From assembly GCF_013403565.1 (NCBI RefSeq), contig NZ_CP058629.1:1-30683 (forward strand): 30,683 nucleotides of DNA, written 5' to 3'. The position numbers and the translations under genes are program-made. This document shows, piece after piece, positions 1 through 30,034 of the stretch. This stretch comes from Chitinibacter bivalviorum (GTDB lineage: Bacteria; Pseudomonadota; Gammaproteobacteria; Burkholderiales; Chitinibacteraceae). Each line of letters begins with the position of its first letter. The first letter of the stretch is position 1. The notes beneath the pieces are model-generated. The model was given only the letters and a program-made list of their open reading frames with translations. It searched no databases and was not told the origin of the DNA.

Positions 1-204
1 ATGCGCTACTGGACATTTGACCCCAACACCTGCCGCTTCGAGCGCGCGAGCAAGCAAGCCGCTTTGCACGCTGCCGACGTGGCCGTGGTCAACGACGACA
101 TCGACGTGCAGGTCATCAGCGATCACCAGCCGCCCAAGCGCTGGCCCAGCGGCGAGCCGCTGGTGGTGACTGGCGTCGAGTTCGAGCGCGAGCTGTTCGA
201 GTAG
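1..204 (+). CDS. Hypothetical protein, 67 aa, first gene after the linearization point
   Basis: I do not recognise a family. The ATG is base 1 of the window. If the molecule is circular, its Shine-Dalgarno GGAGG lies at 30673-30677, six bases upstream, and the preceding gene stops two bases before this ATG. That makes it the second gene of an operon that continues through 3209. The protein is small, soluble and acidic toward its C-terminus, with no membrane segment or cysteine-pair motif apart from a single Cys near residue 11. The stop codon runs directly into the TA-rich repeat at 202-236. The start could be further upstream only if the window is not circular. Confidence 0.65.
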   Translation: MRYWTFDPNTCRFERASKQAALHAADVAVVNDDIDVQVISDHQPPKRWPSGEPLVVTGVEFERELFE

Positions 205-236
205 GTATGTAGGTATATAGGTAGGTATATATATAC
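202..236. repeat. Intergenic TA-rich repeat, copy A
   Basis: Units of TAGGTAT(G/A) followed by TAGGTAGGTATATATATAC, filling the gap between the first gene and the HAD gene. The right 20 bases match the reverse complement of copy C (26092-26119), with only a 4-base gap further left. It occupies the place where the ribosome-binding site of the 237 gene should be, so it may affect that gene's expression. Confidence 0.8.
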
Positions 237-806
237 ATGAAGCCCACAAGAGCCATTGTCTTTGACGCCTTCGGCACCCTGATCCGCTACACCACGCGCC
301 CGGCACCCTACGGGCGTCTGGTGGACGCAGCAGGGCGGCTGGTGGATCGGCTCGCCTGCCTCACGCGCAACGTGCCGATGGCGACCTTCGCCGCCGAGCT
401 GGGCGCAGAGAGCAGCTTGGACATCATGGAAGCCGACTTGGCCGAAGAGCTGTCCGGCCTGCGCCTGTTCCCCGAGGTGGCCGACGTGCTCGCCAAGGCG
501 CGGGCCGCAGGCCTGCGGCTGGCCGTCTGCTCGAACCTTGCCTATGAGTACGGCCCGGCCGTGCGCGGCCTCGTGCCCGAACTGGACGCCTACGTGTTCT
601 CCTACGAGGTCGGGGTGGCCAAGCCACACCCGACGATGTACCGGCTCGCGTGCGCCGAGCTGGGCTGCGCTCCGGCCGAGACGGTTTTCGTGGGCGACAG
701 CAAGCGCTGCGACTTTGACGGGCCGCAGGCTTTCGGGATGCAGGCTCGCTGGCTGGATCGCAGGGGAGGGCAGTCGCTGGTCGATGCCCTCAAGGGAGTG
801 CTATGA
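237..806 (+). CDS. HAD-superfamily hydrolase, dehalogenase-type motif I
   Basis: A 189-aa HAD-fold hydrolase. Motif I is FDAFGTL with nucleophile Asp10. The second position is Phe instead of Asp, as in haloacid-dehalogenase-like members (DAYGT) rather than typical phosphatases. Motif II is the Ser of AVCSN, motif III the Lys of GVAKPHP, and motif IV the Asp of VFVGDSKRCDFDG. Substrate cannot be told from sequence. It is the third gene of the 30118-3209 operon. The start is odd: copy A of the TA-rich repeat ends just before the ATG, leaving no good Shine-Dalgarno at normal spacing. It overlaps the next gene by four bases (ATGA). Confidence 0.85.
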   Translation: MKPTRAIVFDAFGTLIRYTTRPAPYGRLVDAAGRLVDRLACLTRNVPMATFAAELGAESSLDIMEADLAEELSGLRLFPEVADVLAKARAAGLRLAVCSNLAYEYGPAVRGLVPELDAYVFSYEVGVAKPHPTMYRLACAELGCAPAETVFVGDSKRCDFDGPQAFGMQARWLDRRGGQSLVDALKGVL

Positions 807-1240
807 AAAAAGAACTCGATGAGCTGCTGTGCCAGCGCTACCCGCTGATCTTCGCGGATCGTCGCCGCTCCATCAAAGAGAGCTGCATGGGCTGGGGCTT
901 TTCATGCGGCGATGGTTGGTTTGACCTGATCGACACCCTCTGCGAGCGCCTGCAATTCTGGACGGATCGCAACGGAGCGCCGCAAGTTGTCGCCCAGCAG
1001 GTCAAGGAGAAATTCGGCACGCTGTGCTTCTATCCTCGCGAAGCTAACCAAACGCAGCGGGGAATGATCTACATGGCCGAGGCCCTGTCTGCCCGCATCT
1101 GTGACCAGTGCGGCAGGCCGGGTCAGACGCTGGTGCATGAGCACTGGCACATGACCCGGTGCGCGGAGCACGCCCCAGTGGGCGCGATCACGCAAGCGGC
1201 TTTCATTGCTCAGAGGAAAGTGCCGGGGATTGCGCCATGA
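803..1240 (+). CDS. Conserved-looking hypothetical protein with a possible zinc-binding cluster
   Basis: 145 aa, start overlapping the previous stop as ATGA with GGGAG just upstream. The C-terminal third holds ICDQCGRPG and, about 20 residues later, HEHWHMTRCAEH. This Cys/His arrangement could bind one zinc ion. The first half is rich in Trp, Phe and Asp. I do not recognise the family; proteins of this kind occur on phages and plasmids of proteobacteria as hypotheticals. Translational coupling on both sides argues that it works with its operon partners. Confidence 0.75.
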   Translation: MKKELDELLCQRYPLIFADRRRSIKESCMGWGFSCGDGWFDLIDTLCERLQFWTDRNGAPQVVAQQVKEKFGTLCFYPREANQTQRGMIYMAEALSARICDQCGRPGQTLVHEHWHMTRCAEHAPVGAITQAAFIAQRKVPGIAP

Positions 1241-1506
1241 ACGCATCCTCACCCATCGCCGAAACGGCACGCCTTGAGGCTGCCACCGAGACACTCGCCG
1301 AGTACATCGGGTACTTGAACTGTGAGATCGACTTGGAGCAAGAGCAGGCGGCCCCGAACTACGAACGGATCGCGGCCCTTGACCACGAGCTGACCACTGT
1401 TCTTGGCGAGCGCCGGGCACTGACGCCGAGCAATCGCGACATCATCAACCGGGCGCTCTACATCTATGCCCCGGTATTGAAGCGTATGCACGGGGGCACG
1501 CCATGA
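1237..1506 (+). CDS. Hypothetical protein, 89 aa
   Basis: Starts at the ATG overlapping the previous stop (ATGA, 1237-1240). An in-frame start upstream at 1159 would overlap the preceding gene by 80 bases and is less likely. The protein is largely helical by composition, with an acidic Glu/Gln-rich segment near residues 30-45 and a basic C-terminus. No family recognised. Its stop overlaps the next start by four bases. Confidence 0.7.
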   Translation: MNASSPIAETARLEAATETLAEYIGYLNCEIDLEQEQAAPNYERIAALDHELTTVLGERRALTPSNRDIINRALYIYAPVLKRMHGGTP

Positions 1507-1739
1507 CCCGCGACGAACTGATTGCAGCCGTCCCCGTATACGAGCATGAGGGCCGCCCGTTCTACGTGAGCCTTGCCGAAATTCCGCAGCCGTGGCGTGA
1601 CCAATTTTGGACTGCGCTCTATGGCTCACAGTGCCCCAAGATCGACGGCGTAGAGCGAGCGGCCTACGCATGGGACTGGCAGTGCTGGGCGCATGGCAGT
1701 TGGTACGGGAGGCATGGGCCGGAGGGATTGCAGCCATGA
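1503..1739 (+). CDS. Hypothetical protein, 78 aa, Trp-rich
   Basis: Coupled to both neighbours by ATGA overlaps. It has seven or so aromatic Trp/Tyr residues in the C-terminal half (WDWQCWAHGSWYG), unusual for a protein this short and suggestive of a small structured domain or a binding partner. No membrane segment. No family recognised. Confidence 0.7.
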   Translation: MTRDELIAAVPVYEHEGRPFYVSLAEIPQPWRDQFWTALYGSQCPKIDGVERAAYAWDWQCWAHGSWYGRHGPEGLQP

Positions 1740-1948
1740 CCGATCCCGTTGTGTGGCACGCGCTGCATCGGCTGGCTGATTACCCCGTGCTGGATGCCTT
1801 GGCTCGTGAAGGCACCAAGGCAATCAAGCTGGACGGCAGGGCTTGCCGGTACATCTACGAGGCGGCGCTGCCCCGGATCGACTGGCAAGCCGTGTTGCCT
1901 AGCGAACGGGCCTTCATGCTCTTGCTGGGCATTGAGGTGCGGCCGTGA
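1736..1948 (+). CDS. Hypothetical protein, 70 aa
   Basis: Begins at the ATG overlapping the stop of the preceding gene (1736-1739). A longer in-frame reading from 1607 would lie inside that gene and is rejected. The protein is predicted helical and soluble, with no recognisable motif. Its last codons overlap the GTG start of the HAD gene (GTGA, 1945-1948). Confidence 0.65.
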   Translation: MTDPVVWHALHRLADYPVLDALAREGTKAIKLDGRACRYIYEAALPRIDWQAVLPSERAFMLLLGIEVRP

Positions 1949-2682
1949 TCCTCTTTCTCGACTTCGACGGCGTATTGCATCCAGACGCGGCGTACTTAGT
2001 TCGCGGGCGGCCGGAGCTGCGCAGCGGGGGCGAACTGTTCATGTGGTCTTGCTATCTGGTGGATGCGCTGGCCAGCGCGCCGCATGTCCGCATTGTTCTG
2101 AGTACAAGCTGGGCGCGCGAGCTGCGCTTCGCCCGCGCCCGCGACTACCTGCCTGCCGAGTTGCGGCAGCGGATTATTGGAGCCACTTGGCACTCCGGGA
2201 TGGCTACCGACGACGAGCACCGGCCTCTGGGCAGAGACACATGGTGGGACACGTCAACGCGCTACCAGCAAATCCGCCGCTACGTGGATCGCGCAGGCAT
2301 CACTGACTGGATCGCCGTCGATGACCAGCCAGAAGGCTGGGCCGACACCGACCGCGACAAGCTGGTGTCCACCGACAGCAATCTTGGCCTGTCCGCGCCT
2401 TCGGCGCGCGTTCGCCTCGCGGCTGCCGTCGGCAACATGGCTAGCGCGTGGGCCGTAGCTGACGCAATGGCTGGCGTGCTGGTCATTCCGCAAGTCGAGC
2501 GAAGCGCGTCCAGCGCTGATTTGGTGCAGTGGGTCGAGTGGTGGCAGTCTTCCTACCTGCGTGCCACCGAGCTACCACCCGACCAGATTGCCGCCATGAA
2601 GGCTGGCCACTGGTGGCCGCCTGTCTCCGCCGTGGAAGTCCGCGCAATGCCACCGGCCATCGCTCGGAGGCGCATCCCATGA
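1945..2682 (+). CDS. HAD-fold phosphatase-like protein (RNA-repair HAD type)
   Basis: 245 aa from a GTG start coupled to the preceding gene (GTGA). Motif I is FLDFDGVLHPD, with Asp6 and Asp8 both present as expected for a phosphatase. Motif II is the Ser/Thr of VLSTSW, and the acidic motif IV is AVDDQPEGW near residue 130. The DFDGVLHP start plus STSW is typical of the HAD domain found in nucleic-acid repair contexts (the 'Swiss Army Knife RNA repair' HAD family), which I infer from motif pattern only. The C-terminal 90 residues are an uncharacterised extension. The downstream exonuclease gene overlaps by four bases, so phosphatase and nuclease are made together. Confidence 0.8.
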   Translation: MILFLDFDGVLHPDAAYLVRGRPELRSGGELFMWSCYLVDALASAPHVRIVLSTSWARELRFARARDYLPAELRQRIIGATWHSGMATDDEHRPLGRDTWWDTSTRYQQIRRYVDRAGITDWIAVDDQPEGWADTDRDKLVSTDSNLGLSAPSARVRLAAAVGNMASAWAVADAMAGVLVIPQVERSASSADLVQWVEWWQSSYLRATELPPDQIAAMKAGHWWPPVSAVEVRAMPPAIARRRIP

Positions 2683-3209
2683 TGCTGGTCATCGACCTTG
2701 AGGCCACCTGCGACGATGGCGATGGCCTCCCGGCGAGCGATATGGAGATCATCGAGATCGGCGCGGTGTGGGCTACGGTTGAGGGCAGCGTGCTCGACAC
2801 GTTTCAGGCGCTGGTACGCCCCGTGGTACGCCCTCAGCTCACTCCGTTTTGTCGGCAGCTCACCAACATTCAGCAGGCCGACGTGGACGGTGCCGAGTTG
2901 TTCCCAGCGGTCGCGGCACGGCTGGCCAGCTTCGCCCAACGCCATCAGGCACCGGGCGCAACGTGGGGGAGCTGGGGCCAATTCGACGCCAAGCAGCTTG
3001 CGCGTGACTGCGAGCGACACGGCATCGAAAGCCCGCTCGCAGCGTTCGAGCATGTGAACCTCAAGCGCCGGTTTGCTAAGGGCCGCAAGATCAAGGAAGT
3101 GGGGATGGCCCGCGCGTTGCAGATGGTGGGCCTGCCTCTCGATGGTTCGCACCATCGCGGCCTCGACGATGCCCGCAACATCGCCAAGCTCCTTCCGTGG
3201 TCGCTGTAG
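2679..3209 (+). CDS. DEDDh-family 3'-5' exonuclease
   Basis: 176 aa from the ATG overlapping the HAD stop, with GGAGG about eight bases upstream. An earlier in-frame start at 2529 would lie within the HAD gene. Exo I is VIDLEATC (Asp and Glu), Exo II is the Asp of WGQFDAKQL, and Exo III is HHRGLDDARNIAKL with the His and Asp that define the DEDDh (RNase T/DnaQ/KapD) group. All four metal-binding acids and the catalytic His are present, so the enzyme should be active on DNA or RNA 3' ends. It is the last gene of the operon; the TA-rich repeat B begins at its stop codon. Confidence 0.9.
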   Translation: MMLVIDLEATCDDGDGLPASDMEIIEIGAVWATVEGSVLDTFQALVRPVVRPQLTPFCRQLTNIQQADVDGAELFPAVAARLASFAQRHQAPGATWGSWGQFDAKQLARDCERHGIESPLAAFEHVNLKRRFAKGRKIKEVGMARALQMVGLPLDGSHHRGLDDARNIAKLLPWSL

Positions 3210-3245
3210 GTAAGTAGGTATATATATACCTATATACCTACATAC
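3206..3245. repeat. Intergenic TA-rich repeat, copy B
   Basis: Contains a perfect 18-bp palindrome, TAGGTATATATATACCTA, at 3215-3232, flanked on both sides by further GTAGGTA / TACCTACATAC units. It starts on the stop codon of the exonuclease gene and lies about 30 bp before the promoter of the toxin-antitoxin operon. Confidence 0.85.
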
Positions 3246-3276
3246 ACGCAGGAAGCCGGGGGGGAGGGGTGTCGCC

Positions 3277-3310
3277 TTGCGATTGTGCGCGGCGTGCGAT
3301 ACAATGTATC
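3277..3310 (+). promoter_or_regulatory. Promoter and operator of the dinJ/yafQ-type operon
   Basis: -35 TTGCGA (3277-3282), 17-bp spacer, -10 TACAAT (3300-3305). The -10 is embedded in the perfect dyad GATACA-A-TGTATC (3298-3310), a likely operator for the antitoxin or antitoxin-toxin complex, as expected for an autoregulated RelB/DinJ operon. Confidence 0.75.
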
Positions 3311-3336
3311 TCAATCAGTCGCAACAGGAGGCCGTC

Positions 3337-3618
3337 ATGGCTGCTACCACCACTATGGTTCACGTCCGCGTGGACGAGAACGTCAAGGCGCAGGCTGCGG
3401 AAACGCTGGCCTCGATGGGCCTGACCGTCTCCGACGCGATCCGCGTGTTCCTGACCCGCGTCGTCGCCGACAAGGAACTGCCGTTCGCGCTCAAGGCACC
3501 GAACGCCACCAGCCGCGTCGCCATCGCCGAGGCCAACGAGATCATCAAGAGCCGTCGCGCTCGCTTCGCAACCGCTGATGCGCTCCTGAATGACCTCGAA
3601 GAAGCCAGCCGCAAGTAA
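3337..3618 (+). CDS. RelB/DinJ-family antitoxin
   Basis: 93 aa. The start is the ATG preceded by ACAGGAG at 3324-3330. Earlier in-frame ATGs would fall upstream of the predicted transcription start. The N-terminal half (VHVRVDENVKAQAAETLASMG, then LTVSDAIRVFLTRV) is the RHH DNA-binding domain typical of DinJ. The C-terminal tail is a basic, flexible toxin-binding segment. It should bind and neutralise the YafQ-type toxin encoded next and repress its own promoter at 3277-3310. The toxin gene starts inside this gene. Confidence 0.9.
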   Translation: MAATTTMVHVRVDENVKAQAAETLASMGLTVSDAIRVFLTRVVADKELPFALKAPNATSRVAIAEANEIIKSRRARFATADALLNDLEEASRK

Positions 3619-4335: not shown

Positions 4336-4347
4336 GCACCAAGAAAG

Positions 4348-4368
4348 CCGCCTCGCATGGCGAGGCGG
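4348..4368. terminator. Hairpin between convergent operons
   Basis: Perfect 9-bp stem CCGCCTCGC / GCGAGGCGG with a 3-base loop, lying just after the plus-strand TA operon and 80 bp after the minus-strand ppl-like gene ends. There is no clear U tract on either strand, so it may act as a weak or factor-dependent bidirectional terminator. Confidence 0.55.
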
Positions 4369-4446
4369 TGAAAGACTGCGGGCTATCAGGGAGGAAAACG
4401 CCGCTACAAGGCAGTCTCCTTGATTATCAGCGCGTAGGGCAGGGCA

Positions 4447-7101
4447 TCAGAACTCGTACTTCTCTTTGCGCTGGATAAAGGCATCGCGCCCGCCTTCCAG
4501 AATGCTGGCCACCTGATCCCGAATCACGGGAACGTCAATCGAGCCTTGCGCTTCCAGCCCGAGACGCCCTTGGTTTTCAGCGGCCGTGAACACGCCAATC
4601 CACTCGGCATCACCGAACACCGGAATGTTCGCGTTGTGTGTGGCGAACAAGAACTGCCGACTGGTCTTTGCCTCCCTCAACTCGGCGACGATCCGATCTG
4701 CGATGAAGGCATTGTCAAGGTTGTCCTCCGGCTGATCCATGAGAAGGGGGTCAACGTTCTCAAGCAGCAGCATGTGCAGGATTGCCGTGCACTGCTGCCC
4801 CGTAGAGAGCTTGTTGAGCGGCCGGAATACCGCATCGGCTTGGCCGTGCGCGACATTCAAGAAGATGTCCACGCGATGCTCCAGCTCCAAGGCCTCCAAC
4901 TCCATGAGCTGAGACGACTGGAGCTTGGTGAGTGCGTCGGCCACCATCTGCGTGACGCCCCAATCGAGTTGTACGTCGGCAGACCCTTTCTGAATCGACT
5001 GGGCCAGCGACAGCGGGCTGATCGTCTCAGCATCCTCAATGAACGCAAGCCGCTTTTCGCCAACACCGTCCAGCTTGCAACCCAGCAGGAAGGTCATCAA
5101 GGGCGTGCGATCAGCCTCCGGCACGATCTCCACCTTGAGCTTGCCCTCAAGTCGTCTGTTCAGCTTCTTCGCGGCCTTCTGCAACGCCTGTATGCGTTGC
5201 GCACGCAAATCAGACAGCTCGGCCAACAGGTTGCGCCGTTCCTGACGCAAGGTGTCGCGCTGGGACTCGTGCGTAGTCGCCCGCGACTTCATTGGCTTGA
5301 TGCGCTCGATCTCCCCCATCAACTTCTGATAGGCAACACCGACCTCCTGCCCGCTCTTTCCAGCAGTGGCGGGTAACGTGCGCAGCGCTTTCTCCAACTC
5401 GACATCGTGGGCCTGAATCGCCTGCTGCCATGCGTCATGCTGGGTGGTGAACTGTCCGGCCTTGTCATCAAGTAAGGCCTGCATCGCGGTCAGATGGCCG
5501 ATGAACCCCTGCTTTAGTCCATCCAGCGTCGTGCGCATGGCGAGCAACTGGGTAGCGTCAGGCAAGCCCTCAAGCGCCTCATCGTTGATGAAGTCAAGGT
5601 CAGGCAAGCTGTCACGCAGGTCTGTAAGCGCATCGCGAAAGCTCTGTACGCCCTCGGTCGCGGTCTTGGCAATCTCTCGCTCGCGCGCGAGCAATGAGGT
5701 CTTGGCCAGCTTCTCTTTGATCCCCAGCTCATCAAAACCGCGAAGCTGCTCTTCCAGCTTGGGCAAGCGCTCAACCTGTGCATTCAGCTCGTCGAGATCG
5801 GTCAGGGACTTCGTGAGCTTCTGCTGGTTGTCCTTCAAGCGCCTATGCACGTCGGCGCTCTTGGACTCGTACTCTCCGTCTTGAGGAAGGAAGCGATCCA
5901 GCAACTGCACCCGGCTGGTTTCATCTTGGGCCAGCTCGTAAATCTCGTTCTGCCCATAAATGTCGATGCCCGGCAGCAAGTCGCGCGGGAGCAGGGTCGA
6001 GACGTTGCCATCCATGTCACGCACCATCGGCGGCTCGCCATGACGACGCGAAATGGTGTACTGCTTGCCGTTCTGGGCAGAGGACACCACTGTCAGCTCA
6101 ACCCGACCGGCCGAGCGACCAAGGTTCTCCTTGATGATCTCTTGGTGGAGCTTCTGCGCCTGCTTGCCTTTGGGTGGCAAGTCCAAGGCGAAGCGCAGGC
6201 ATTCGAGCAAGGTTGACTTACCCGTTCCACGACCGCCGATCACCGTGTTGAGATGGTCTGAAAAATCTACCCGGACGCCATCAAGGTAGCCACCGGCCAC
6301 CGTCATGCGTACCACCTTGCCAATCGGGCTTTGGGCCTGCTGCGAGTTGAGACGGACTCGCGATCCCGGATCGAGGAAGGCCACCTTGAACGCCGCGAAA
6401 GTGGGCCGTGTCATCTTGATGAAGCACGTTGCGCTCGGCTGATCCAAGTCATCAGGCTTGGCAACATCCTTGGCATTGATCGCTGCCACAGGACGCTCAC
6501 GCCGGTAGCTGTCGTCCTTGTTCAAGAACACCTTGCGATAGAAGTCACCCTCGATGCTCGTGAGGTCGTCTATCGATCCCGGAATCTGGGCCGCGCGCAG
6601 CTTGGAATGCTTCCATACGTGGTTCAGGCGGTTTTTCAGCAGCCCGCTCTCCTGCGTGCAATGTGCAGCGTAGATGAACCCGCCCAATAGATCGACCTCT
6701 TCGATCAGCTCTTCCGAACTCAACCGAGAAGGCCGGATGCCATCCGCTGGGTCATGCAGCTTGAGGTTGCCAAGGTAGCGATCAAGCTGCTGCACCGTGG
6801 TGTCCTCGGGGAAGAGACAAACGTAATGCGTCTTGTCGTTCGAGGCGATCTCGAAGCCGGGAAACACCACGATCCCGTGCGGCTGTAGCACCTGACGCAG
6901 AGCATCGACGCTGGCCACGCTGCCGTGGTCGGCTAAACCGACAACCTTGATACCCAGCTCAAGGCACTTTTGAAGCAGCGCTTGGTTGTAGCCGCCCTCA
7001 TCCAGCCCGTGATCGGCTCCCCTGTAGGTGCCGTTGTAGCCAACAGGATTGACCTGTAGCGCGCAGCGCCAGAATCGTGCGTAGGTGTATTGATCGCTCA
7101 T
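4447..7101 (-). CDS. PHP-domain + SMC-like ATPase (Ppl/TrlF-type), putative defence protein
   Basis: 884 aa with strong Shine-Dalgarno GGGAGG five bases before the ATG. The N-terminal 240 residues resemble a PHP metal-dependent phosphoesterase: ADHG (His59), GFEI (Glu83), THY (His92), AAHC (His147) and Asp212. The usual final S-D-x-H His is Ala here. The remainder is an SMC/RecF-like ATPase: Walker A GGRGTGKST (289-297), long coiled coil (about 410-690), signature LSTGQQ (765-770), Walker B LLMDQPEDNLDN (786-797) and a D-loop. Architecture matches TrlF-family ATPases and the antiviral Ppl proteins reported in defence-gene surveys. It follows the restriction-modification gene on the same strand with a 91-bp gap, so the two are probably co-expressed. 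DNA sensing by the ATPase with a PHP effector is inference. Confidence 0.8.
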   Translation of the reverse strand: MSDQYTYARFWRCALQVNPVGYNGTYRGADHGLDEGGYNQALLQKCLELGIKVVGLADHGSVASVDALRQVLQPHGIVVFPGFEIASNDKTHYVCLFPEDTTVQQLDRYLGNLKLHDPADGIRPSRLSSEELIEEVDLLGGFIYAAHCTQESGLLKNRLNHVWKHSKLRAAQIPGSIDDLTSIEGDFYRKVFLNKDDSYRRERPVAAINAKDVAKPDDLDQPSATCFIKMTRPTFAAFKVAFLDPGSRVRLNSQQAQSPIGKVVRMTVAGGYLDGVRVDFSDHLNTVIGGRGTGKSTLLECLRFALDLPPKGKQAQKLHQEIIKENLGRSAGRVELTVVSSAQNGKQYTISRRHGEPPMVRDMDGNVSTLLPRDLLPGIDIYGQNEIYELAQDETSRVQLLDRFLPQDGEYESKSADVHRRLKDNQQKLTKSLTDLDELNAQVERLPKLEEQLRGFDELGIKEKLAKTSLLAREREIAKTATEGVQSFRDALTDLRDSLPDLDFINDEALEGLPDATQLLAMRTTLDGLKQGFIGHLTAMQALLDDKAGQFTTQHDAWQQAIQAHDVELEKALRTLPATAGKSGQEVGVAYQKLMGEIERIKPMKSRATTHESQRDTLRQERRNLLAELSDLRAQRIQALQKAAKKLNRRLEGKLKVEIVPEADRTPLMTFLLGCKLDGVGEKRLAFIEDAETISPLSLAQSIQKGSADVQLDWGVTQMVADALTKLQSSQLMELEALELEHRVDIFLNVAHGQADAVFRPLNKLSTGQQCTAILHMLLLENVDPLLMDQPEDNLDNAFIADRIVAELREAKTSRQFLFATHNANIPVFGDAEWIGVFTAAENQGRLGLEAQGSIDVPVIRDQVASILEGGRDAFIQRKEKYEF

Positions 7102-7192
7102 ATTCCTCCCTGATTTCTACAGTTGCGATGCATGGCGACGCGCTACAGGACTATCGGCTGCACCTGCTATTAGTTTTCCGTCATCGAACTCA

Positions 7193-10100
7193 TTACTGGC
7201 GAAGTGCGATTTCAGCTTCAATGATCTCAGCAGCAGCAGCCCTGACCTTGGCGACGATATTGGCCCGCTTCTTAGAGTCATGCTCTTGATGGGCCTGCTT
7301 CACTAGCTCAGCAAGCGCCTTGTGCTCGGCCAAACTGGCGTCATACTCAGGCAGACTCACATGCTTGAAGATGTCGCCCATATTGGTTGCCACGTTGTGC
7401 GCCTCGATCATCTCCTTGACGATCTCCGAGTGCAGCAATCCGCACAAGTAAAAGGCTGGCTCCGGCTGGTCGAAGTCGGCAAAGTAGAGCTTGTGGTCAG
7501 GGACATAAACACGCGGCCCGTAGCCCGGCACAGACCCAGACGCCACGACGGCCGCTGAAAAATCGCCGGTCATCTCGGCCCAAATGACCTTATAGGGTGC
7601 AAAGGTGTAGTCGCCCACGTTGTAGATTGCGAAGAAGGGCGCACCCTTCATGCGCGTCTTGAAGGTGGAACGCGACTCCAAAAACGACTTGTAGGCTTTG
7701 AAAAACTTGAATGTCTTGGGATTCGTGTGACTGCTGTAGCGCGCCGCAGCGCTGTCCAATGATGCCCGGTCAATGCCCTTATTCGGCACAAACGCATAGA
7801 GCGTGTTCTCCGGCAGGAAATAGCATGGATGGAGGTCGCCTGCGCCCTTTGCCAGGGGAAACAAGCTCTCAGCCTCAACCCAGAATTCGCGCGGCTGCCC
7901 CAAGTCGGTTTTGCCTTCATGTGGCCGAGTTCGCACCTTGACCGTCTTTGTTGCAGGGTTCGAGTCAATGACATCCACAAAATAGACGCCATTCAGGTCA
8001 GTCGTGATGCCCTTACGGCCGTTGACCCAAGTAGAGGGGCCAAACATCGGCTGACATGCGGCGAAGTGCCCCGGCTTCATGATGGCCCAAGGAGCCCCCT
8101 CCATAGTCTGCGAGACGGGATTGGCTTCCATCTGAATCACATCCACAAGATCAGCCACCTCTGCACGATGTAGACGTGGGTCGATTGCCTTCAAGCGAGC
8201 CACTTGACCGCCGCGTCCCTTCTTCGGATTGCCTGCATTGTCGGTCTTGGGCTTGCCAAGCCAGACACGGTAGTCCAACGGATAGCGGGTCGTACCCCCT
8301 ATCTTCTTCGTGAACATGGCGACAGCCGTTTTATTCGCCGCGTCTGGAAACGGCTTTAGCTCCTTCATGTCATCGATGGAGATAGGCACCAAGCGGTCGG
8401 TTGCATTGATGCGGAAGCGCCGGAAGCCTTGCGACGAAGGCGACTGGAACACCGTCTGCGTGATGACAAACACCAACCGTCCATCTTCGACCAGCCACTT
8501 GTCAGCCGTCGTGTAGGTGATGATGGCGGAAATGTCTAATTCGTTGCCACCATGGAACTTGGTGTCCGAGAAGATGGCGTACTTTTCGCAGGTGGGCTTA
8601 GCTCGGTTCCGGTATGCCTCTGGGAGATTCGACCATCGTACCCAAGGCGGATTACCAACAATGGCATCAAACTGTCCAGCAGTAGCTGACCAAAAAAAGT
8701 TGCGCACGATCCTGAACCAAATACCGTTCCAGTTCTGCCGATGCAGTGCGAGCACTTGGTCATAGGTCGTCTTGAGGTGGTCATTCCACTCATCGGCCTG
8801 CGCCTTGCTCAGTATCTTGGCTTTCACCAGCGCCTTAGAGACGGGCGGGAATTCAGTGTCGTTTTCAACCTCTTCTCCCATGAGCTGGAATACTTTGTCG
8901 AGCAACACGCGATCACGCGCCAAGTCGGCAGGTAGAACAACTTGCAGATTTGCTTGCTGGCTGCCAATGCTGTACTCGACCACCTTTTGATCGCCGTCAG
9001 GGTGGGGGGCAGGGGAGTACACCGCATCAGCTAAGAGAACGGGAATCTCAACGTCTTTACCCTTGCACTGCTGCAACAGGTCTGCGATAGCGATCAGGAA
9101 GTTGACGCGAGAGGATTGCACAGCAAGTGGGTTGAGGTCGAAGCCCCAGACCGTCGTGGTCAGCATGTCCACGGTCTGCTCAGCAGTCCATCCCGCCGTC
9201 AGCGCTGCTCGGCGCTTCTGCTCAATAGCCTCCAGCAAGAACGAACCAGACCCGCATGTCGGGTCAAGTAGCCGAGCAGCAAGCCACTTGTCTCGCTTGT
9301 AGCCAAGCTTGGCCACAGAGTGCTCGACCAACCAGTCCGGCGTGTAGAACTCGCCAAGGCTCTTGCGCAATTCCTCCGGAACCAAGTCCTGATAGAAGTC
9401 ACGCAGAACATCGCGCGAGCGGCCGGTCTTCTTGATGGTATCGAAGCGATAGACCGAAAGCTGGGCCAGCAAGGTGCGAATCGCCAAGCACATCGACGTG
9501 CGGATCGCCTTCTTGGTTGTGGCATCCAGATACCAACTAAAGATGGCTTCTTCGACGAAGCCATGCAAGCCGACTGCGTTGAAGAACCCGCCGTTCTCGA
9601 CATCCGAGCGTAGGGCCTCAATCAGGGCTTCGTCCGATCCGAGAGCCAGTAGCTCATGGATCAGGGAAGTGCTTGACGCCATGCCATGTGCAGCCACGAT
9701 CTCGGCCGCGATCAGCTTCATCAGCAGAGAATGAAAGGTGTGGGTGACGAAAAGCTTGGCAGGCAAGTCAATGGCGGCCGGGCCTGCGAAGTCAAATCCC
9801 AATGACCCATTGATCTTCTTGCGCTGTTGAATGCTGAGGTCAGCAGCCTGCCCATACAAGGTTGCCCATTCCTCGAAGAGCATCTTGATTTTGCGGTTGC
9901 CGGGCTGCCCAAGAGCGTCAGCAAGAGCATTGGACAGTTCCTGCATGAACTCGCGGCCTGTCTCGGATAGATGCCCAAAGTCCTCGGCTAGGTTCTCCGA
10001 TGTGATGGCTCGCCGGAAATTTGCTCTCAGCGCATCGACCACCATCTGGAAGGCAATGGTCGAGAACGGCATCAGTGGCTGGTGAACGATCTTGCCGTCT

Positions 10101-10447
10101 TGGACTTGGGCAAAGCCCACATGATCGCCGTCGATGGCAATACCGATGTAGTCCTTCTCATCCAGCCCTTGCTCAGCAGCCAAGCGGGGGATGTATTTCA
10201 AGAGACGACCATCGGTCGCCTCGATGAACTTCGGACTTGTCTCACTCCCCTTGAAGAGGCCGGGGCCTTTGAACTCGATGACGACGTTGTTGTAGCTGGA
10301 GTCGCGTTTGGCTCTCTCCGCGTCCAAGTCGATCTGCAAGGCCTCTTCAAGCCCCTTCATCCATGCGTGGCGTACTTCTTCCTCGTTGACCCACTGCTTG
10401 CGGCGGCGATTGATGAGGTCGTAGCCCTTCTTGGTATTGGTGTCCAT
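7193..10447 (-). CDS. Type IIG-like fused restriction endonuclease / N6-adenine methyltransferase
   Basis: 1084 aa from the ATG at 10447, chosen because AAGGA precedes it; an earlier in-frame start at 10495 would overlap the resolvase gene. N-terminal nuclease candidate: Glu34/35, Asp49 and VVIEFK (Glu58, Lys60), fitting PD-(D/E)XK. A helical connector follows. The methyltransferase has motif X GEFYTP (365-370), motif I DPTCGSGSF (395-403), FDLNP (436-440) and catalytic NPPW (599-602), the gamma-class adenine N6 arrangement. Residues about 620-1084 would hold the target-recognition domain. Such enzymes methylate one strand of the site and cut nearby, needing no separate methylase. It begins 16 bp after the resolvase gene, an unusual partner, and is followed by the PHP-ATPase gene. 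Confidence 0.85.
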   Translation of the reverse strand: MDTNTKKGYDLINRRRKQWVNEEEVRHAWMKGLEEALQIDLDAERAKRDSSYNNVVIEFKGPGLFKGSETSPKFIEATDGRLLKYIPRLAAEQGLDEKDYIGIAIDGDHVGFAQVQDGKIVHQPLMPFSTIAFQMVVDALRANFRRAITSENLAEDFGHLSETGREFMQELSNALADALGQPGNRKIKMLFEEWATLYGQAADLSIQQRKKINGSLGFDFAGPAAIDLPAKLFVTHTFHSLLMKLIAAEIVAAHGMASSTSLIHELLALGSDEALIEALRSDVENGGFFNAVGLHGFVEEAIFSWYLDATTKKAIRTSMCLAIRTLLAQLSVYRFDTIKKTGRSRDVLRDFYQDLVPEELRKSLGEFYTPDWLVEHSVAKLGYKRDKWLAARLLDPTCGSGSFLLEAIEQKRRAALTAGWTAEQTVDMLTTTVWGFDLNPLAVQSSRVNFLIAIADLLQQCKGKDVEIPVLLADAVYSPAPHPDGDQKVVEYSIGSQQANLQVVLPADLARDRVLLDKVFQLMGEEVENDTEFPPVSKALVKAKILSKAQADEWNDHLKTTYDQVLALHRQNWNGIWFRIVRNFFWSATAGQFDAIVGNPPWVRWSNLPEAYRNRAKPTCEKYAIFSDTKFHGGNELDISAIITYTTADKWLVEDGRLVFVITQTVFQSPSSQGFRRFRINATDRLVPISIDDMKELKPFPDAANKTAVAMFTKKIGGTTRYPLDYRVWLGKPKTDNAGNPKKGRGGQVARLKAIDPRLHRAEVADLVDVIQMEANPVSQTMEGAPWAIMKPGHFAACQPMFGPSTWVNGRKGITTDLNGVYFVDVIDSNPATKTVKVRTRPHEGKTDLGQPREFWVEAESLFPLAKGAGDLHPCYFLPENTLYAFVPNKGIDRASLDSAAARYSSHTNPKTFKFFKAYKSFLESRSTFKTRMKGAPFFAIYNVGDYTFAPYKVIWAEMTGDFSAAVVASGSVPGYGPRVYVPDHKLYFADFDQPEPAFYLCGLLHSEIVKEMIEAHNVATNMGDIFKHVSLPEYDASLAEHKALAELVKQAHQEHDSKKRANIVAKVRAAAAEIIEAEIALRQ

Positions 10448-10463
10448 TGTTGTCCTTCTGTTT

Positions 10464-11048
10464 TCAGTTCTGCCGCTTCGGCTCGGGCCGCCCAATAGGA
10501 GCTACCTTGTAAATTGTGGTTCGCGAGACACCGTACAGCTCGGCGATTCGACCGATGGGGAGCTTCTGCGCGTCCACCATCTCGTTGATCTCTTTGATCT
10601 GGGCCTCGGTGAGCTTTGGCTTCCTCCCGCCGGCGCGGCCTCTGGCTCGGGCTGCGGCAAGGCCTGCACGGGTGCGCTCGCGGATCAGGTCACGTTCCAT
10701 CTCCGCGAACATGCCGAACATCGCGTACATGGCCTTGCCCATCGTCGAGTCGTCGAAAACGACTCGCGGCTGCAATAGCTCGATGTACACGCCAGCAGCA
10801 CGCAGCCTGTCGGCGATCTGCACAAGGTCGGAGAGAGAACGTCCCAGCCGGTCGAGCTTCCAGACCACCAAGGTGTCGCCACGCCGCAAGCGCCTCAGGC
10901 ACTCGGCGAGCTGAGGCCGGTCAGCGCTCTTGCCGCTGGCCGTTTCCTCGTACACGTCGTCGCACCCGGCTTGCCTGAGAGCATCCCTCTGCAAGTCCGG
11001 GTTCTGGTCGCTTGTCGAGACACGCGCGTATCCGATGCGCTGCTCCAT
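10464..11048 (-). CDS. Serine resolvase (small serine recombinase)
   Basis: 194 aa. The N-terminal catalytic domain shows RIGYARVST with catalytic Ser11, then KLDRLGRSL and the E-helix region AEMERDLIRERT. A C-terminal helix-turn-helix (IGRIAELYGVSRTTIYKV) binds DNA. The likely target is the three-part res site just upstream (11079-11152 plus 12065-12092), where it would resolve plasmid multimers or cointegrates. The gene is 16 bp from the restriction-modification gene and in the same direction, so transcription starting in res would serve both. Its res site is split by the mini-transposon at 11162-12044, which may impair resolution. Confidence 0.92.
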   Translation of the reverse strand: MEQRIGYARVSTSDQNPDLQRDALRQAGCDDVYEETASGKSADRPQLAECLRRLRRGDTLVVWKLDRLGRSLSDLVQIADRLRAAGVYIELLQPRVVFDDSTMGKAMYAMFGMFAEMERDLIRERTRAGLAAARARGRAGGRKPKLTEAQIKEINEMVDAQKLPIGRIAELYGVSRTTIYKVAPIGRPEPKRQN

Positions 11049-19098: not shown

Positions 19099-19142
19099 GG
19101 TTACCACCTGCGCCGGGGGTGGTTACCACCTGCGCCGGGGGC
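19099..19142. repeat. Two tandem 22-bp iterons
   Basis: Two adjacent copies beginning GGTTACCACCTGCGCCGGGG, identical at 21 of 22 positions (the last base is T, then C). A 22-bp period matches that of IncQ2 iterons; functional IncQ origins normally have three or more. Confidence 0.85.
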
Positions 19143-26036: not shown

Positions 26037-26091
26037 CCTTGCGTCACGACTTCCCCAGCGCCACACAAGCCGCTTGATTCGCTCGATTTGT

Positions 26092-26119
26092 GTATATATA
26101 TACCTACCTATATACATAC
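26092..26119. repeat. Intergenic TA-rich repeat, copy C
   Basis: GTATATATATACCTACC followed by TATATACATAC. Its reverse complement matches copy A (205-236) except for a 4-base gap. It lies upstream of the split small ORF. Confidence 0.85.
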
Positions 26120-26484
26120 GGTTTTCAAGTGGAAGCCGGGTCAAGGGCGTGACCGGAAGCCGCACGCGGAGCACAGGGCGCAGCCCGAGCACCGAACGGG
26201 TGAGGATCACGGCGCAGCGCACCCTTGATGCGGCTGGAACGACCAGAGCCTCACGTCAGAGGGGGATGTCAAGGGCAAAGCCCGCCCACATTCCCCCGCG
26301 ACGTGTGGGGCAAGACCCCACGCGGGAAGCCGAAACCGAAGGGGTTTCGGTCGCCGGGACGGCGAAAGCGGCAGGCCGACCGACAGGGAGGGAAGATCGA
26401 AGCCCGCAGGGGTCGAGACTCGGCACGAGGCTCGATGCGAAGCACGAGAGCCCGGTCGATGCGCAGCAGCGAGCCGCCCGAATT
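26120..26484. other. Structured non-coding stretch
   Basis: 365 bp without a credible gene; the open frames on both strands have no recognisable protein content. Two strong hairpins adjoin: GTGGGG-loop-CCCCAC (26305-26321), extended by CCCGC/GCGGG arms to 26295-26326, and CGAAACC-GAAGG-GGTTTCG (26331-26349). Could be the decayed 3' half of the truncated primase gene, an RNA, or an origin element. Confidence 0.45.
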
Positions 26485-26838: not shown

Positions 26839-27047
26839 ACGCTACATCCTCCGAACTCCATTCAACCGACACGGCCGCCACGCCGAAAAGTGACAGGGGG
26901 GCCGCGCTGACGCGCGGCGAAACACCCTCCGGGCTTCGCCCTGCGCGCGGGATGATGGATAAGTCCTGCGGACTTACCCACAACCCACTTGCGGCTACTC
27001 GCGTTTGAAAAACGCTGGGGCTACTCAAAACCAAAACCAGCTCCATC
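26839..27047. other. oriV: Candidate oriV downstream of repA
   Basis: 209-bp gap between repA and the primase-like gene. Contains the inverted repeat TAAGTCC-TGC-GGACTTA (26960-26976) next to ACCCACAACCCACTTG, and a GC-rich stretch with GCGCGCGG. ColE2-type initiators act at a short site just downstream of their own gene, which is this location. No iterons are seen. Confidence 0.5.
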
Positions 27048-28268
27048 TCAGCCATCCAGCACAGGCACGACACCCGGCCCAGCAGGAAACAGCTCAAGGG
27101 ACACCGAAGCAGCACCCGGAACCCCGGCCCCCTGCGGGGCGGCAGTTACCTGATGTGCACCATGTTTAACATCCTCGGCCTTGCCCGAAGCGCCCCCCAA
27201 AATCGCCACGGCGACGGGCTTGAGCACTTCTTCGAGCACATGCTTGTAGGTGGCCACCGTCTGCCTTGTGAGGCCCGCCACGCGGCCGATAGCGGCTTGC
27301 GTGAGGGCTTCGCCCTTCTGTTGCAGCAGGCGGCACGCGGCGCGCACCTTGGACTCGGTGGCCTTGTGGCGCACGTCGTGGGTGCGGGCGGCGGCGAGGC
27401 GCTGCCGCTCGATCAGCGGCAAGTCCTTGTCGAGCTGCATCACGCCCCGGTGGCACCGGCCGCAGCCGGTGTAGCGATCCCACGTCCAGCGGGCGACCGA
27501 CTTCACCGTGGCCTTGAGTGAGGACTGGGCCAGGTTGTCCATGAAGCCCAGCTTCTGGAAGCTGTTGCGGTTGTGCGCATAGGCTTCGAGCAGCCGCGTG
27601 AAGGTGGCAAAAGAGCCGCGCTCGCGCTCACGGTTCACGATGGAATAGGCGTAGTGGCGCAGGTGCTCGAAGAGGATGCAGTGCCGGGAATGGCTCACCT
27701 CGTCGAACTGCGGCCCCTTCCCCCACGGGCTGGACACAGCCAAGTCCACGTAGTCGGCCAACTCCCCCAGCTCGTAGACGTGGGCGTGCAGCTCGTGCGT
27801 CAGCCACCAAGGATGGCCGGGCGTCTTGGCCACGGGGCCGCTGTGGAAGTCGGTGTCGGCATCGAGCCGGGCAGCGAAGGCCTCGTAGACGGCCTTCATG
27901 TACGCGATGGGCTTGCTGCGGGCGGCCTCGGTCGTGCAGACCGGGGGAATCGCGTAGTAGAGGTGGCTGTGGCCGCTTTGGCGGTTGCGGACGATCAGAT
28001 TGGGAGCAGGAAGCCCAGCGTCCTCCCAGATCATCGCCTTGGTGTGGTCGAGGTCGAAGATCAGCCAGCTCACAAAGCCGGGCCGATTGACCTGCATGTA
28101 GGGGTAGCGAATGGCGTATTCGCGCGGCCGGACGCGGGTGGCCGTCTTGTCGTCAGAGCAACGCGGCAGATAGGGCGCTTCCGTGAGCACGCGATTGAGC
28201 GCGGTGCCCGACTGGAAAAAGCGATCTGCGGTCTGGTTGTCTCGTGTCTGTGCCGTTGTACCTGCCAT
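27048..28268 (-). CDS. repA: Replication initiator, ColE2/Replicase family (primer-making Rep)
   Basis: 406 aa with GAGGGG before the ATG. The N-terminal domain has IRYPYMQVNRPGFVSWLIFDLDH (Asp72, Asp74) and GHSHLYYAI (His100, His102), the catalytic pattern of the Replicase/archaeo-eukaryotic-primase-like Rep proteins of ColE2 and IncP-6/IncU-type plasmids. A PriCT-1-like segment follows, then a helix-turn-helix (AAIGRVAGLTRQTVATYKHVL, about 330-350). Such proteins bind their origin and synthesise the primer for DNA polymerase I. Expression is probably controlled by the antisense RNA over its leader at 28341-28465. The C-terminal 60 residues are Pro/Gly/Ala-rich and probably disordered. Confidence 0.88.
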   Translation of the reverse strand: MAGTTAQTRDNQTADRFFQSGTALNRVLTEAPYLPRCSDDKTATRVRPREYAIRYPYMQVNRPGFVSWLIFDLDHTKAMIWEDAGLPAPNLIVRNRQSGHSHLYYAIPPVCTTEAARSKPIAYMKAVYEAFAARLDADTDFHSGPVAKTPGHPWWLTHELHAHVYELGELADYVDLAVSSPWGKGPQFDEVSHSRHCILFEHLRHYAYSIVNRERERGSFATFTRLLEAYAHNRNSFQKLGFMDNLAQSSLKATVKSVARWTWDRYTGCGRCHRGVMQLDKDLPLIERQRLAAARTHDVRHKATESKVRAACRLLQQKGEALTQAAIGRVAGLTRQTVATYKHVLEEVLKPVAVAILGGASGKAEDVKHGAHQVTAAPQGAGVPGAASVSLELFPAGPGVVPVLDG

Positions 28269-28306
28269 AACCCCTCATCACACGTCCCGTAGGGGCGTGC
28301 GCACGC

Positions 28307-28335
28307 TTGCGTGCAGGGGCTAAGACTCGTACAAT
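28307..28335 (+). promoter_or_regulatory. Promoter of the antisense RNA opposite repA
   Basis: -35 TTGCGT (28307-28312), exactly 17-bp spacer, -10 TACAAT (28330-28335). It faces away from repA and toward the terminator at 28434. Confidence 0.75.
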
Positions 28336-28340
28336 GGAAG

Positions 28341-28465
28341 CACTTTCAGTCGCTTTATTGCACTGGTACAGAGTTCACCCGCCAAAGCGAACGCTGTATT
28401 TGTCTGGGCACCCTGCCCGGTTTATCTGTCAAGGCCCGCTCGCCAAAGCGGGCTTTGTCGTTTCT
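28341..28465 (+). ncRNA. Candidate antisense RNA controlling repA
   Basis: From the predicted start six bases after TACAAT to the terminator, about 120 nt. It is complementary to the repA leader, whose coding sequence starts at 28268 on the other strand. Internal hairpins include AGCG-AAC-GCT (28386 region) and GGGCA-CCC-TGCCC (about 28406-28418). ColE2-type plasmids use just such a short leader-antisense RNA to limit Rep synthesis and copy number. No protein is credible from the short frames here. Confidence 0.7.
28434..28465 (+). terminator. Rho-independent terminator of the antisense RNA
   Basis: Perfect 7-bp stem GCCCGCT / AGCGGGC (28434-28440, 28447-28453) followed by TTTGTCGTTTCT. Orientation fits the plus strand only. 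Confidence 0.75.
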
Positions 28466-28515
28466 GACTCTCCAGTTTTGTGCTGTCTGGTCAGCTCTCT
28501 CCTTTGCCATGACGG

Positions 28516-28827
28516 TCACTCGTCGGCATCCACAGACGCCGGTGCTTGCTTGTAGCCTCGCACCATCGTCTTGGGCACCCAGTGCTCCGTGTTCACATCA
28601 AACTTCATGATCCCGTAGGACTGCAAAACGCTTGCAGCTCCATCGAGACTCTGGAAGTACCGAAGGCCGCCACGGGCAGCACCCAGCACTCGCTCATTCA
28701 TTCCGGCCCGCACCACGATCAAGAGGCCCTTATCACCGGGTTCCACTCGGGCGGCGGAAACCGACCCAGCGGCGATGAGTTCCTTCAAAACCTTCGGCGC
28801 GACCACACTAGCAGTTGTCGTCAGCAT
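28516..28827 (-). CDS. Hypothetical protein in the parC position, 103 aa
   Basis: A small soluble protein with an N-terminal helical region (VLKELIAAGSVSAARVEPG), an ERVLGAARGGLRYF segment with several Arg, and an acidic tail. The first part reads like a DNA-binding helix pair, but no family is certain. It lies between repA and the parAB genes, where IncP-6 plasmids carry parC in my recollection. A strong promoter ends only two bases before the ATG, so the mRNA may be leaderless, or the true start lies slightly downstream. Confidence 0.65.
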   Translation of the reverse strand: MLTTTASVVAPKVLKELIAAGSVSAARVEPGDKGLLIVVRAGMNERVLGAARGGLRYFQSLDGAASVLQSYGIMKFDVNTEHWVPKTMVRGYKQAPASVDADE

Positions 28828-28829
28828 CG

Positions 28830-28858
28830 TTTATACCTTATTCCGCGCCCAATCGCAA
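28830..28858 (-). promoter_or_regulatory. Promoter of the 28516-28827 gene
   Basis: Minus strand: TTGCGA (28858-28853), 17-bp spacer, TATAAA (28835-28830). The ATG follows two bases after the -10, so transcription would begin at or just after the start codon. Confidence 0.65.
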
Positions 28859-28910
28859 CAATATCATGTTTCGTTGCGCCTGTCGCTGCATGGTGTTGGT
28901 GTCTTCATTT

Positions 28911-28930
28911 GTATGGACTATAGTCCATAC
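28911..28930. promoter_or_regulatory. Perfect 20-bp palindrome, putative operator
   Basis: GTATGGACTATAGTCCATAC, perfectly self-complementary, about 80 bp upstream of the 28827 start and 10 bp from repeat copy D. Contains TATAGT on both strands, so it may overlap a -10 element. Confidence 0.75.
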
Positions 28931-28938
28931 TGGAAATC

Positions 28939-28976
28939 GTTATATATATACATAGATAGGTATATACATACCTATC
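28939..28976. repeat. Intergenic TA-rich repeat, copy D
   Basis: GTTATATATATACATAG followed by the dyad GATAGGTATATACATACCTATC. It abuts the stop codon of the RHH partition gene. Confidence 0.8.
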
Positions 28977-29298
28977 AGCGCTTGAGGAAGGCTTCGAGCG
29001 CCTCGACCACGAGGTCTTTCTCGGTGACGCGCGTGCCCTTCTCTTCTGAGCGCTTGAGCGCTTCGCGGCGCAGGCGATCAGCCAGTTCCTCGGGGAAGTT
29101 GAAGATTTTTTGCACCCGTGCGCGGCCGTAGCGCTGCGTTTCCTCGGCAGCGGGCGGCGTGGCGGCCGGTGGCGTGGTCACGGCCGCAGGTGCCACCAGC
29201 GGCTTTTCGGCCTTGTCCGCCTCCCCGCCTTCAAGGAAGGCGGTCGGGTCTTTGGGCGGCTTGAACTGCGCCGTGTTGGGCTTGCCCTTCATGCTCAT
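28975..29298 (-). CDS. parB: Small ribbon-helix-helix partition protein (ParB/ParG-like)
   Basis: 107 aa from the ATG overlapping the parA stop (ATGA); the longer in-frame reading to 29412 would lie inside parA. The N-terminal 55 residues are Pro/Ala/Thr/Lys-rich and disordered. The C-terminal part (RVQKIFNFPEELADRLRREALKR, then VTEKDLVVEALEAFLKR) is an RHH dimerisation and DNA-binding domain. A mobile N-terminus with a C-terminal RHH is the ParG plan. In such type Ib systems this protein binds the centromere and represses the par promoter. The TA-rich repeats around parA are its most likely sites. Confidence 0.8.
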   Translation of the reverse strand: MSMKGKPNTAQFKPPKDPTAFLEGGEADKAEKPLVAPAAVTTPPAATPPAAEETQRYGRARVQKIFNFPEELADRLRREALKRSEEKGTRVTEKDLVVEALEAFLKR

Positions 29299-29921
29299 GC
29301 CATCACCTCCTTGAAGAAGGCTTCCATCTCGGCAATGGCGGCTTGATCGCGGCCCAGCTCCTGAACGCTCGCGCCTTCGCCGATGGCGCGGCGGAAAGCC
29401 ACCCGCTCGCACACCTTGGTCGGCAGCACGGTCAGCTTCTGCTCGGCCAAGAATTCCAGCATTTCGGCCGCATCCTTGGTGCGCGGATCGACACGGGTCA
29501 GCAGCACGCGCACATCCAGCTCGGGGTTGTAGTCGCGGGCCAGCTCGACCACTTCCAGCAAGTCGGTCATGGCGGCAGCGTCCAGATTGCTCGCGCCAAT
29601 CGGGATCACGGCACGCTGGGCCAGCAGCAGCGCGGAGCGCAGACCAACCGAATCACGGCCACCGGCATCAACGACGACATGCTCGAAGCCGCTGGCCAAC
29701 TGCTTGCCTTCGGCCAAGATCGCCTTACCAGCGAGGCAGGTGGTGGTGGGCGACGGGTCGTATTGCGTCTCACGACGCCAAGCAGCCCAGCTCGCGGCCG
29801 AGGCCTGCGGGTCGCCGTCGATCAGGAGGGTCTTGCCCTGCCGGGCCAGCATCACTGCCAAATGCACAGCGGTCGTGGTCTTGCCGACGCCGCCCTTGGT
29901 GTTCACACACGCGAAGATCAT
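29295..29921 (-). CDS. parA: ParA partition ATPase (type Ib, ParF/IncC-like)
   Basis: 208 aa with TAGGAG nine bases before the ATG. Deviant Walker A KGGVGKTT (residues 9-16), Walker A' at LIDGDPQASA, and Walker B VVVDAGG. No N-terminal helix-turn-helix, so it is the short type Ib form, as ParF. With the RHH protein it segregates plasmid copies over the nucleoid. Repeats E and F lie in its upstream region, E directly before the ribosome-binding site. Confidence 0.93.
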   Translation of the reverse strand: MIFACVNTKGGVGKTTTAVHLAVMLARQGKTLLIDGDPQASAASWAAWRRETQYDPSPTTTCLAGKAILAEGKQLASGFEHVVVDAGGRDSVGLRSALLLAQRAVIPIGASNLDAAAMTDLLEVVELARDYNPELDVRVLLTRVDPRTKDAAEMLEFLAEQKLTVLPTKVCERVAFRRAIGEGASVQELGRDQAAIAEMEAFFKEVMA

Positions 29922-29930
29922 GGGGTGCTC

Positions 29931-29952
29931 CTATAGATATATATACATACCG
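29931..29952. repeat. Intergenic TA-rich repeat, copy E (parA leader)
   Basis: CTATAGATATATATACATACCG; on the parA strand it reads CGGTATGTATATATATC and then overlaps the TAGGAG ribosome-binding site, so a protein bound here could also block translation. Confidence 0.85.
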
Positions 29953-30011
29953 ACGCAGCAGCAAAGCGGCTGACCATCGACCTGCCGGGTTCCTCCCCGG
30001 CGCTGGGACTC

Positions 30012-30034
30012 GGTAAGTATATATATACCTACCG
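30012..30034. repeat. Intergenic TA-rich repeat, copy F (parA promoter region)
   Basis: Near-perfect dyad CGGTAAGTATATATATACC then TACCG. On the minus strand TTGTGG lies 16 bp before TATACT inside this repeat, a possible parA promoter that the repeat-binding protein would occlude. Copies E and F are separated by about 60 bp. Confidence 0.8.

Follow-up and report, generated by a model that had tools for sequence, protein, structure and literature searches.

Type Ib partition systems of plasmids combine a small ParA with a ribbon-helix-helix (RHH) ParB. According to the accessible portions of the reports on the closest described systems, an Omega dimer binds one 7-bp repeat and full activation of ParA needs at least four contiguous repeats (PMC9499535), ParG coats an array of tetramer boxes (PMC7308502, PMC5016525), and the parABC-repA cluster of IncP-6 is presented without a site (PMC4785139). 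Here, we describe six TA-rich intergenic sites, referred to as arrays A to F, in a 30,683-nt stretch of DNA that is the entire contig C3 of the four-contig, 3.68-Mb genome of Chitinibacter bivalviorum (the window). From sequence comparisons, we suggest that the plasmid has a type Ib partition system and that the six sites are binding arrays of its own ParB, a small protein of 107 aa whose gene follows parA, and we assign this reading a probability of about 0.8.

The sites follow a simple rule, in which TA recurs at every fourth base to give a lattice of TANN tetramers, mostly with GG to the left and CC to the right of a TATATA core. The arrays are as follows, with positions counted in the window:

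Array A, 202-236 (tetramer run 202-237), plus strand: 9 tetramers (TAGG TATG TAGG TATA TAGG TAGG TATA TATA TACA) occupying the whole space from the 67-aa gene, whose TAG stop it includes, to the HAD gene.
Array B, 3206-3245 (run 3207-3246), plus strand: 10 tetramers (TAGG TAAG TAGG TATA TATA TACC TATA TACC TACA TACA) after the exonuclease gene and upstream of relB.
Array C, 26092-26119 (run 26093-26120), plus strand: 7 tetramers (TATA TATA TACC TACC TATA TACA TACG) ~370 bp beyond the 117-aa gene.
Array D, 28939-28976 (run 28941-28976), minus strand: 9 tetramers (TATA TATA TACA TAGA TAGG TATA TACA TACC TATC) immediately after the parB stop, between parB and parC.
Array E, 29931-29952, minus strand: a short, interrupted array shortly before the start of parA.
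Array F, 30012-30034 (run 30014-30033), minus strand: 5 tetramers (TAAG TATA TATA TACC TACC) upstream of parA, between parA and the divergent 187-aa gene.

A sequence-only reading of the window had reported six repeats, all of which we find at the coordinates it gave, together with a perfect 18-bp palindrome in B, which is TAGGTATATATATACCTA at 3215-3232. The motif that it took to be shared by all copies, GTATATATATAC, is exact in A, B, C and F, while D reads TTATATATATAC and E reads GATATATATAC. Stop codons adjoin A, B and D, and the first TAG of A and of B is the stop of the preceding gene.

The six sites are genuine and lie well outside what chance would produce. Besides A, B, C, D and F, the window has no further run of at least four tetramers, and Markov sequences of order 1 or 2 yield 0.02 such runs per window length. 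In the window, the five-tetramer pattern TANNTANNTANNTANNTA is matched 20 times, overlaps counted, and 100 dinucleotide shuffles yield no match; in the 3.68-Mb genome, it occurs 20 times in contig C3 and three times in contig C1, and the same pattern read backwards occurs nine times. When the arrays were shuffled individually, the observed run was reached in 1 (A), 0 (B), 40 (C), 0 (D) and 24 (F) of 2000 trials. We therefore rejected a chance origin of the arrays on the basis of the Markov and shuffle controls. Array E is weak alone, its run of three being attained in 1464 of 2000 shuffles of its own sequence, and is counted as a site only because several relatives hold a run of five there, ~27 bp before parA. 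The counterpart of F in several relatives lies ~108 bp before parA.

The ends of the window fall between two genes that are adjacent to each other in relatives and, therefore, we read the window as a plasmid circle opened at a start codon. On this circle, all six sites lie in the order C-D-E-F-A-B within one backbone block of ~7.8 kb around parA. The sites are thus separate but not scattered over the plasmid, as the word dispersed in the sequence-only reading might suggest. The genes at the center of the block are:

rep, 27048-28268, minus strand: replication initiation protein with Replicase and PriCT_1 matches.
parC, 28516-28827, minus strand: ParC family partition-associated protein (NCBIfam NF041544, 115.7 bits, cut-off 95).
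parB, 28975-29298, minus strand: 107-aa candidate RHH protein, the proposed reader of the arrays, with homologs named centromere-binding protein.
parA, 29295-29921, minus strand: 208-aa ParA-type ATPase with CbiA (1.1e-19) and AAA_31 matches.

The complete order is C, the 117-aa gene, rep, parC, D, parB, parA, E, F, the 187-aa gene, the 67-aa gene, A, the HAD gene, further genes, the exonuclease gene, B and relB. As in type Ib ParABS systems, the ATPase is small and of the ParA type, and short direct and inverted repeats (D, E and F) are present at the par operon. The NCBIfam ParA_partition score of the window ParA is 166.9 bits, which is under the cut-off of 180.

A comparison across related plasmids, which the sequence-only reading had called for, finds the motif conserved at corresponding places, with each site present in 6 to 10 of 11 loci (A in 9, B in 8, C in 6, D in 9, E in 10 and F in 10). 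Because three of these loci (L014, L015 and the pXAC33 piece) are only partly covered, a site scored as absent there may simply be unfetched. In L009 and L011, other DNA takes the place of C, and in a Pandoraea locus (L012), the arrays at C, D, E and F are rebuilt. In six relatives, of which five are complete and one (L010) is covered for 50.0 of 52.1 kb, all 31 arrays of at least five tetramers are confined to a single segment of the backbone, 3.1 to 6.7 kb long, and such arrays occur nowhere else in the sequence examined. In Nitrosospira and Comamonas endophytica, the surroundings of parAB align poorly, yet arrays are kept upstream of parA and directly after parB. A Chitinilyticum locus (L031) has, upstream of parA, an additional long inverted array, GGCGTACATATATATGTATATATATGTACGCC, between the two usual sites.

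These data also bear on the possibility that the arrays are recombination seams of the backbone, as the sequence-only reading had offered as its alternative, or else mobile repeats or neutral microsatellites between modules. Whole units are indeed gained or lost as slippage would give, for instance at site A of Vitreoscilla, which is 12 bp (three tetramers) longer with the lattice unbroken, and the alignment to L011 breaks 7 bp after C. However, of the 80 points at which alignments to nine relatives end, only three are within 20 bp of an array, and two of these three have other causes, one being the end of the fetched record (L014) and one a divergent stretch (L012). Recurrent borders are found elsewhere, near 790-799, 2680-2683, 3922, 4430-4434 and 25990. 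Moreover, the arrays keep their place and lattice while the adjoining DNA diverges, and their spelling depends on the type of ParB. We regard an origin of this kind as highly improbable.

The dependence of spelling on ParB emerged when loci were grouped by the beta-strand of their ParB into the KIFNF type, to which the window belongs, and the more distant K.FR type. Arrays are present upstream of parA and after parB in all 12 KIFNF loci, and in 14 and 10, respectively, of the 21 K.FR loci. In runs of at least four tetramers, counted with equal thresholds in all 12 KIFNF and 21 K.FR loci, GG/CC makes up 56 of 239 tetramers and GC none in the KIFNF loci, while GC makes up 65 of 173 and GG/CC none in the K.FR loci. 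If runs of at least three are included, the numbers are 56 GG/CC and 0 GC of 248 for KIFNF, and 3 GG/CC and 75 GC of 242 for K.FR. A looser count of TANNTA, which takes 20 K.FR loci, finds TAGGTA/TACCTA in 12/12 KIFNF and 2/20 K.FR loci and TAGCTA in 0/12 KIFNF and 15/20 K.FR loci; L038, which is outside this count, is a K.FR locus with TAGCTA. The environmental Pseudomonas plasmid pA62H2 (L019) likewise has TAGCTA arrays. TAGCTA is absent from the Arsenophonus, two Zymomonas, Pantoea and Deefgea loci. ParB homologs that are ~30-50% identical to the window ParB mostly have arrays at the same two places in another spelling, e.g. GATAGCTAGCTATC. Thus, spelling and protein type differ jointly. 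Of one set of 22 loci, 16 entered these comparisons; the near copies L023, L024, L025, L027 and L035, all of which have arrays, were left out, as was L043, the second contig of the L044 strain, while L052, a weak match, is outside the analysis. For L042, L044, L050 and L051, the parA start is only estimated.

On the tree, residue 67 (N or R) changes once and spelling changes twice and, therefore, the result is an association of locus and protein type and no test of whether residue 67 alone sets the spelling. In place of TAGCTA, the Arsenophonus plasmid (L021) repeats a 16-bp unit, TTGATATCTAACTATC, in perfect tandem immediately ahead of parA (3222-3390).

Two further comparisons addressed the link between arrays and ParB. 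First, the Comamonas resistens plasmid pZM22-2 (L013) encodes homologs of much of the block (117-aa gene 79%, rep 49%, parC 51%, 67-aa gene 70%, HAD genes 70 and 77% identity), while its ParA is 27% identical to the window ParA and its ParB has no detectable match to the window ParB. This plasmid lacks a TANN run of five. Instead, AATACGTATT occurs four times (0.01 expected), always intergenic, in the 67-aa/HAD gap (the place of A), ~400 bp beyond the 117-aa gene (the place of C), upstream of parA and at 11009. Of five other records found with relatives of this ParB, three were fetched, and all three have ATACGTAT within 60 bp upstream of parA. These sequence comparisons indicate that site positions are kept while the site sequence follows the resident ParB. 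Second, in an unbiased test on 399 genomes of the order, the core palindrome AGGTATATATATACCT is found in two, the genome of the window and G208, and the reversed AGGTATATATATACCT control in none. The ParB family profile has matches in five of the 399, and close homologs (E ~1e-57) are present only in the two with AGGTATATATATACCT; in G208, one AGGTATATATATACCT copy lies 8 bp after the parB match. The sequence-only reading had proposed that the sites could serve the 107-aa RHH protein as a centromere or as a set of operators; the accompaniment of its homologs by arrays on different replicons, the restriction of AGGTATATATATACCT to genomes with close ParB homologs and the difference of spelling with protein type all argue for this proposal.

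Because rep and parC are in the same block, another plasmid protein could be the binder, either Rep, with the arrays as iterons, or ParC. However, arrays lie next to parB on a trfA replicon (L017) and go with parB in L018 and L019, all three without an annotated parC; L013 has Rep and ParC homologs yet no TANN array; and a tandem repeat set was not found at rep. Rep iterons were therefore rejected, as the arrays track parB across replicons and are absent from L013 despite its Rep homolog, and we consider the chance that either protein is the binder to be very small.

While ParB and the sites differ between loci, ParA hardly changes. The window ParA is 93.3 and 93.8% identical to those of the IncP-6-type loci L020 and L054 and 91.8% identical to that of Deefgea L057, with the corresponding values for ParB being 37.6, 39.4 and 42.7%. 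As judged from these identities, ParA has stayed almost the same while ParB and its arrays diverged. Such loci would thus provide natural pairs for testing how specificity can change without loss of function, and these ParB/array pairs also bear on whether spelling sets plasmid compatibility. Two plasmids of one strain, Deefgea piscis D17 (L057 and L060), have different ParB types, and their site motifs are AC/GA tetramers and ATACGTAT, respectively, a pattern that a link between site code and compatibility would predict. We tentatively put forward a wider model, for which we hold the odds to be somewhat short of even. In this model, the plasmid family would carry a multi-site centromere in a TANN lattice, in which the two free letters (GG/CC, GC or other) would be a recognition code read by the beta-strand of ParB. 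Lineages would switch this code in ParB and at every site, even at those lying kilobases away from parAB, with the ParA motor and the positions of the sites retained. If so, a change of code would create new compatibility groups, and through the satellite arrays the partition complex could mark the backbone block as a whole.

Pfam and NCBIfam searches with the 107-aa ParB gave no match, and distant ParB homologs gave sub-threshold Pfam matches only, e.g. Omega_Repress with the L019 homolog (E 0.016). A structure model of ParB has helices at residues 70-87 and 93-106, and VIA listed PutA and Arc for it; in a first model, residues 61-66 were helical and VIA listed no rows. Foldseek returned an RHH match for neither model. 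Searches of the PDB by sequence gave a single unrelated match for ParB (E 8.5) and two unrelated matches for the L019 homolog, and the best match in a profile search, ribosomal protein L23 (E 0.0077), was taken as chance. As modelled, the window ParB is a candidate RHH protein. Residues 63, 65 and 67, which we take to face the DNA from the range of the Arc alignment and the contacts presumably made by Arc, are candidate readers of the GG step.

The analysis provides a candidate ParB, unannotated until now, and a candidate centromere for the backbone of the window, and ties this backbone to IncP-6. The record of pHS87a encodes a 97% identical homolog of the 107-aa protein, while the accessible part of its description names 'parA and parC' only (PMC4739549). 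For pPE52IMP, the accessible part of the report states that a parB gene was not found (PMC9501424). The partition module of pPE52IMP is a different one, its ParA being 28% identical to the window ParA, and its slot between parA and parC encodes a 109-aa protein that has no name and resembles the window ParB weakly (E 1e-4; L062, 25830-26985). The pair has short inverted repeats on either side, GCTGCTACCTAGCAGC preceding parA and GCTGCTAGGTAGCAGC following it, and the 109-aa protein is possibly another ParB with another code.

We infer that ParB binds the arrays with an 8-bp dimer spacing and that they function as centromere and in autorepression. By analogy with Omega and ParG, one ParB dimer would probably occupy two tetramers (8 bp), giving two to five dimers per array, with the GG/CC tetramers supplying recognition and the TATA steps spacing. 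D, E and F beside parAB would form the core centromere and partition complex, E/F would double as the operator by which ParB limits expression of its own operon, and A, B and C would act as satellites through which further ParB dimers join the partition complex.

Alternatively, the arrays could mainly be transcription operators, with ParB acting as an Omega-like global repressor of parAB, parC, the HAD gene and relBE, and with partition as a secondary function. As described in the accessible part of the report, Omega has both roles, and parS overlaps the copS, delta and omega promoters (PMC9499535). In the window, E and F lie upstream of parA, and D lies upstream of parC. However, a consensus scan of 28300-30200 finds no sigma-70 promoter, only E and F are in the parA upstream region, and B sits upstream of, and not over, the relB promoter as read by hand. 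Array A occupies a 32-bp gap between two genes, which leaves no room for an ordinary promoter and favors a structural over a regulatory role at this site. Moreover, L027 and the par-rep piece of pXAC33 retain an array at A, and in the pXAC33 piece the HAD gene no longer follows. We consider a primarily regulatory function unlikely. Among the proposals of the sequence-only reading, the binder and the centromere are thus favored by comparison, the coordination of several backbone promoters by one partition protein is unproven, and recombination seams are disfavored.

Between array D and the parC start, there is a perfect 20-bp palindrome, GTATGGACTATAGTCCATAC, at 28911-28930, a candidate operator of parC; of the 18 loci scanned, 9 have its inner 18-mer, and its 14-bp core also occurs in the IncP-6-type L020 and L054. 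In the accessory region, a 22-bp unit is perfectly duplicated in tandem at 19099-19141. Two large minus-strand genes at 4447-10495 encode proteins of 884 and 1100 aa. The neighbor in L007 of the 884-aa protein is annotated as a TrlF family AAA-like ATPase, and the 1100-aa protein, as judged by eye, resembles a combined restriction-modification enzyme.

We regard the system described here as probably a further variant of type Ib partition, one in which related plasmids preserve an unusually legible natural record of how a centromere code changes. An exact-string text search with three array sequences returned no paper; subscription papers were mostly outside its scope, and an earlier description there is possible. 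Like this system with its candidate RHH protein, Omega/parS of pSM19035, of type Ib, has an RHH ParB and several separate sites of short tandem repeats, which there serve as centromere and lie at partition and copy-control promoters (PMC9499535). However, Omega/parS has contiguous 7-bp WATCACW repeats and separately transcribed genes, whereas here the period is 4 bp in a TANN lattice, parAB form an operon and extra sites are present away from parAB.

ParFGH of TP228 combines a small ParA with an RHH ParB whose N-terminus is flexible; its tetramer boxes are degenerate and separated by AT-rich spacers, and repression acts through an operator (PMC7308502, PMC5016525). In the window, GG/CC tetramers alternate with TATA tetramers, a likeness to the parH boxes by description and not by the exact box. 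In TP228, one continuous centromere and, in addition, the operator lie upstream of the operon, whereas here arrays are present on both sides of parAB together with three satellites. The IncP-6 parABC-repA cluster (PMC4785139) shares the order parA-parB-parC-rep and a 93-94% identical ParA, while its ParB is 38-39% identical, of the K.FR type and accompanied by GATAGCTAGCTATC arrays. Finally, in the ParR/parC families of Clostridium perfringens plasmids, as here, the pairing of centromere-binding protein and repeats is family-specific, and it is tied to compatibility (PMC9426499). However, these are ParMRC systems in which the motor proteins diverge, whereas here ParA is nearly constant while ParB and its sites differ.

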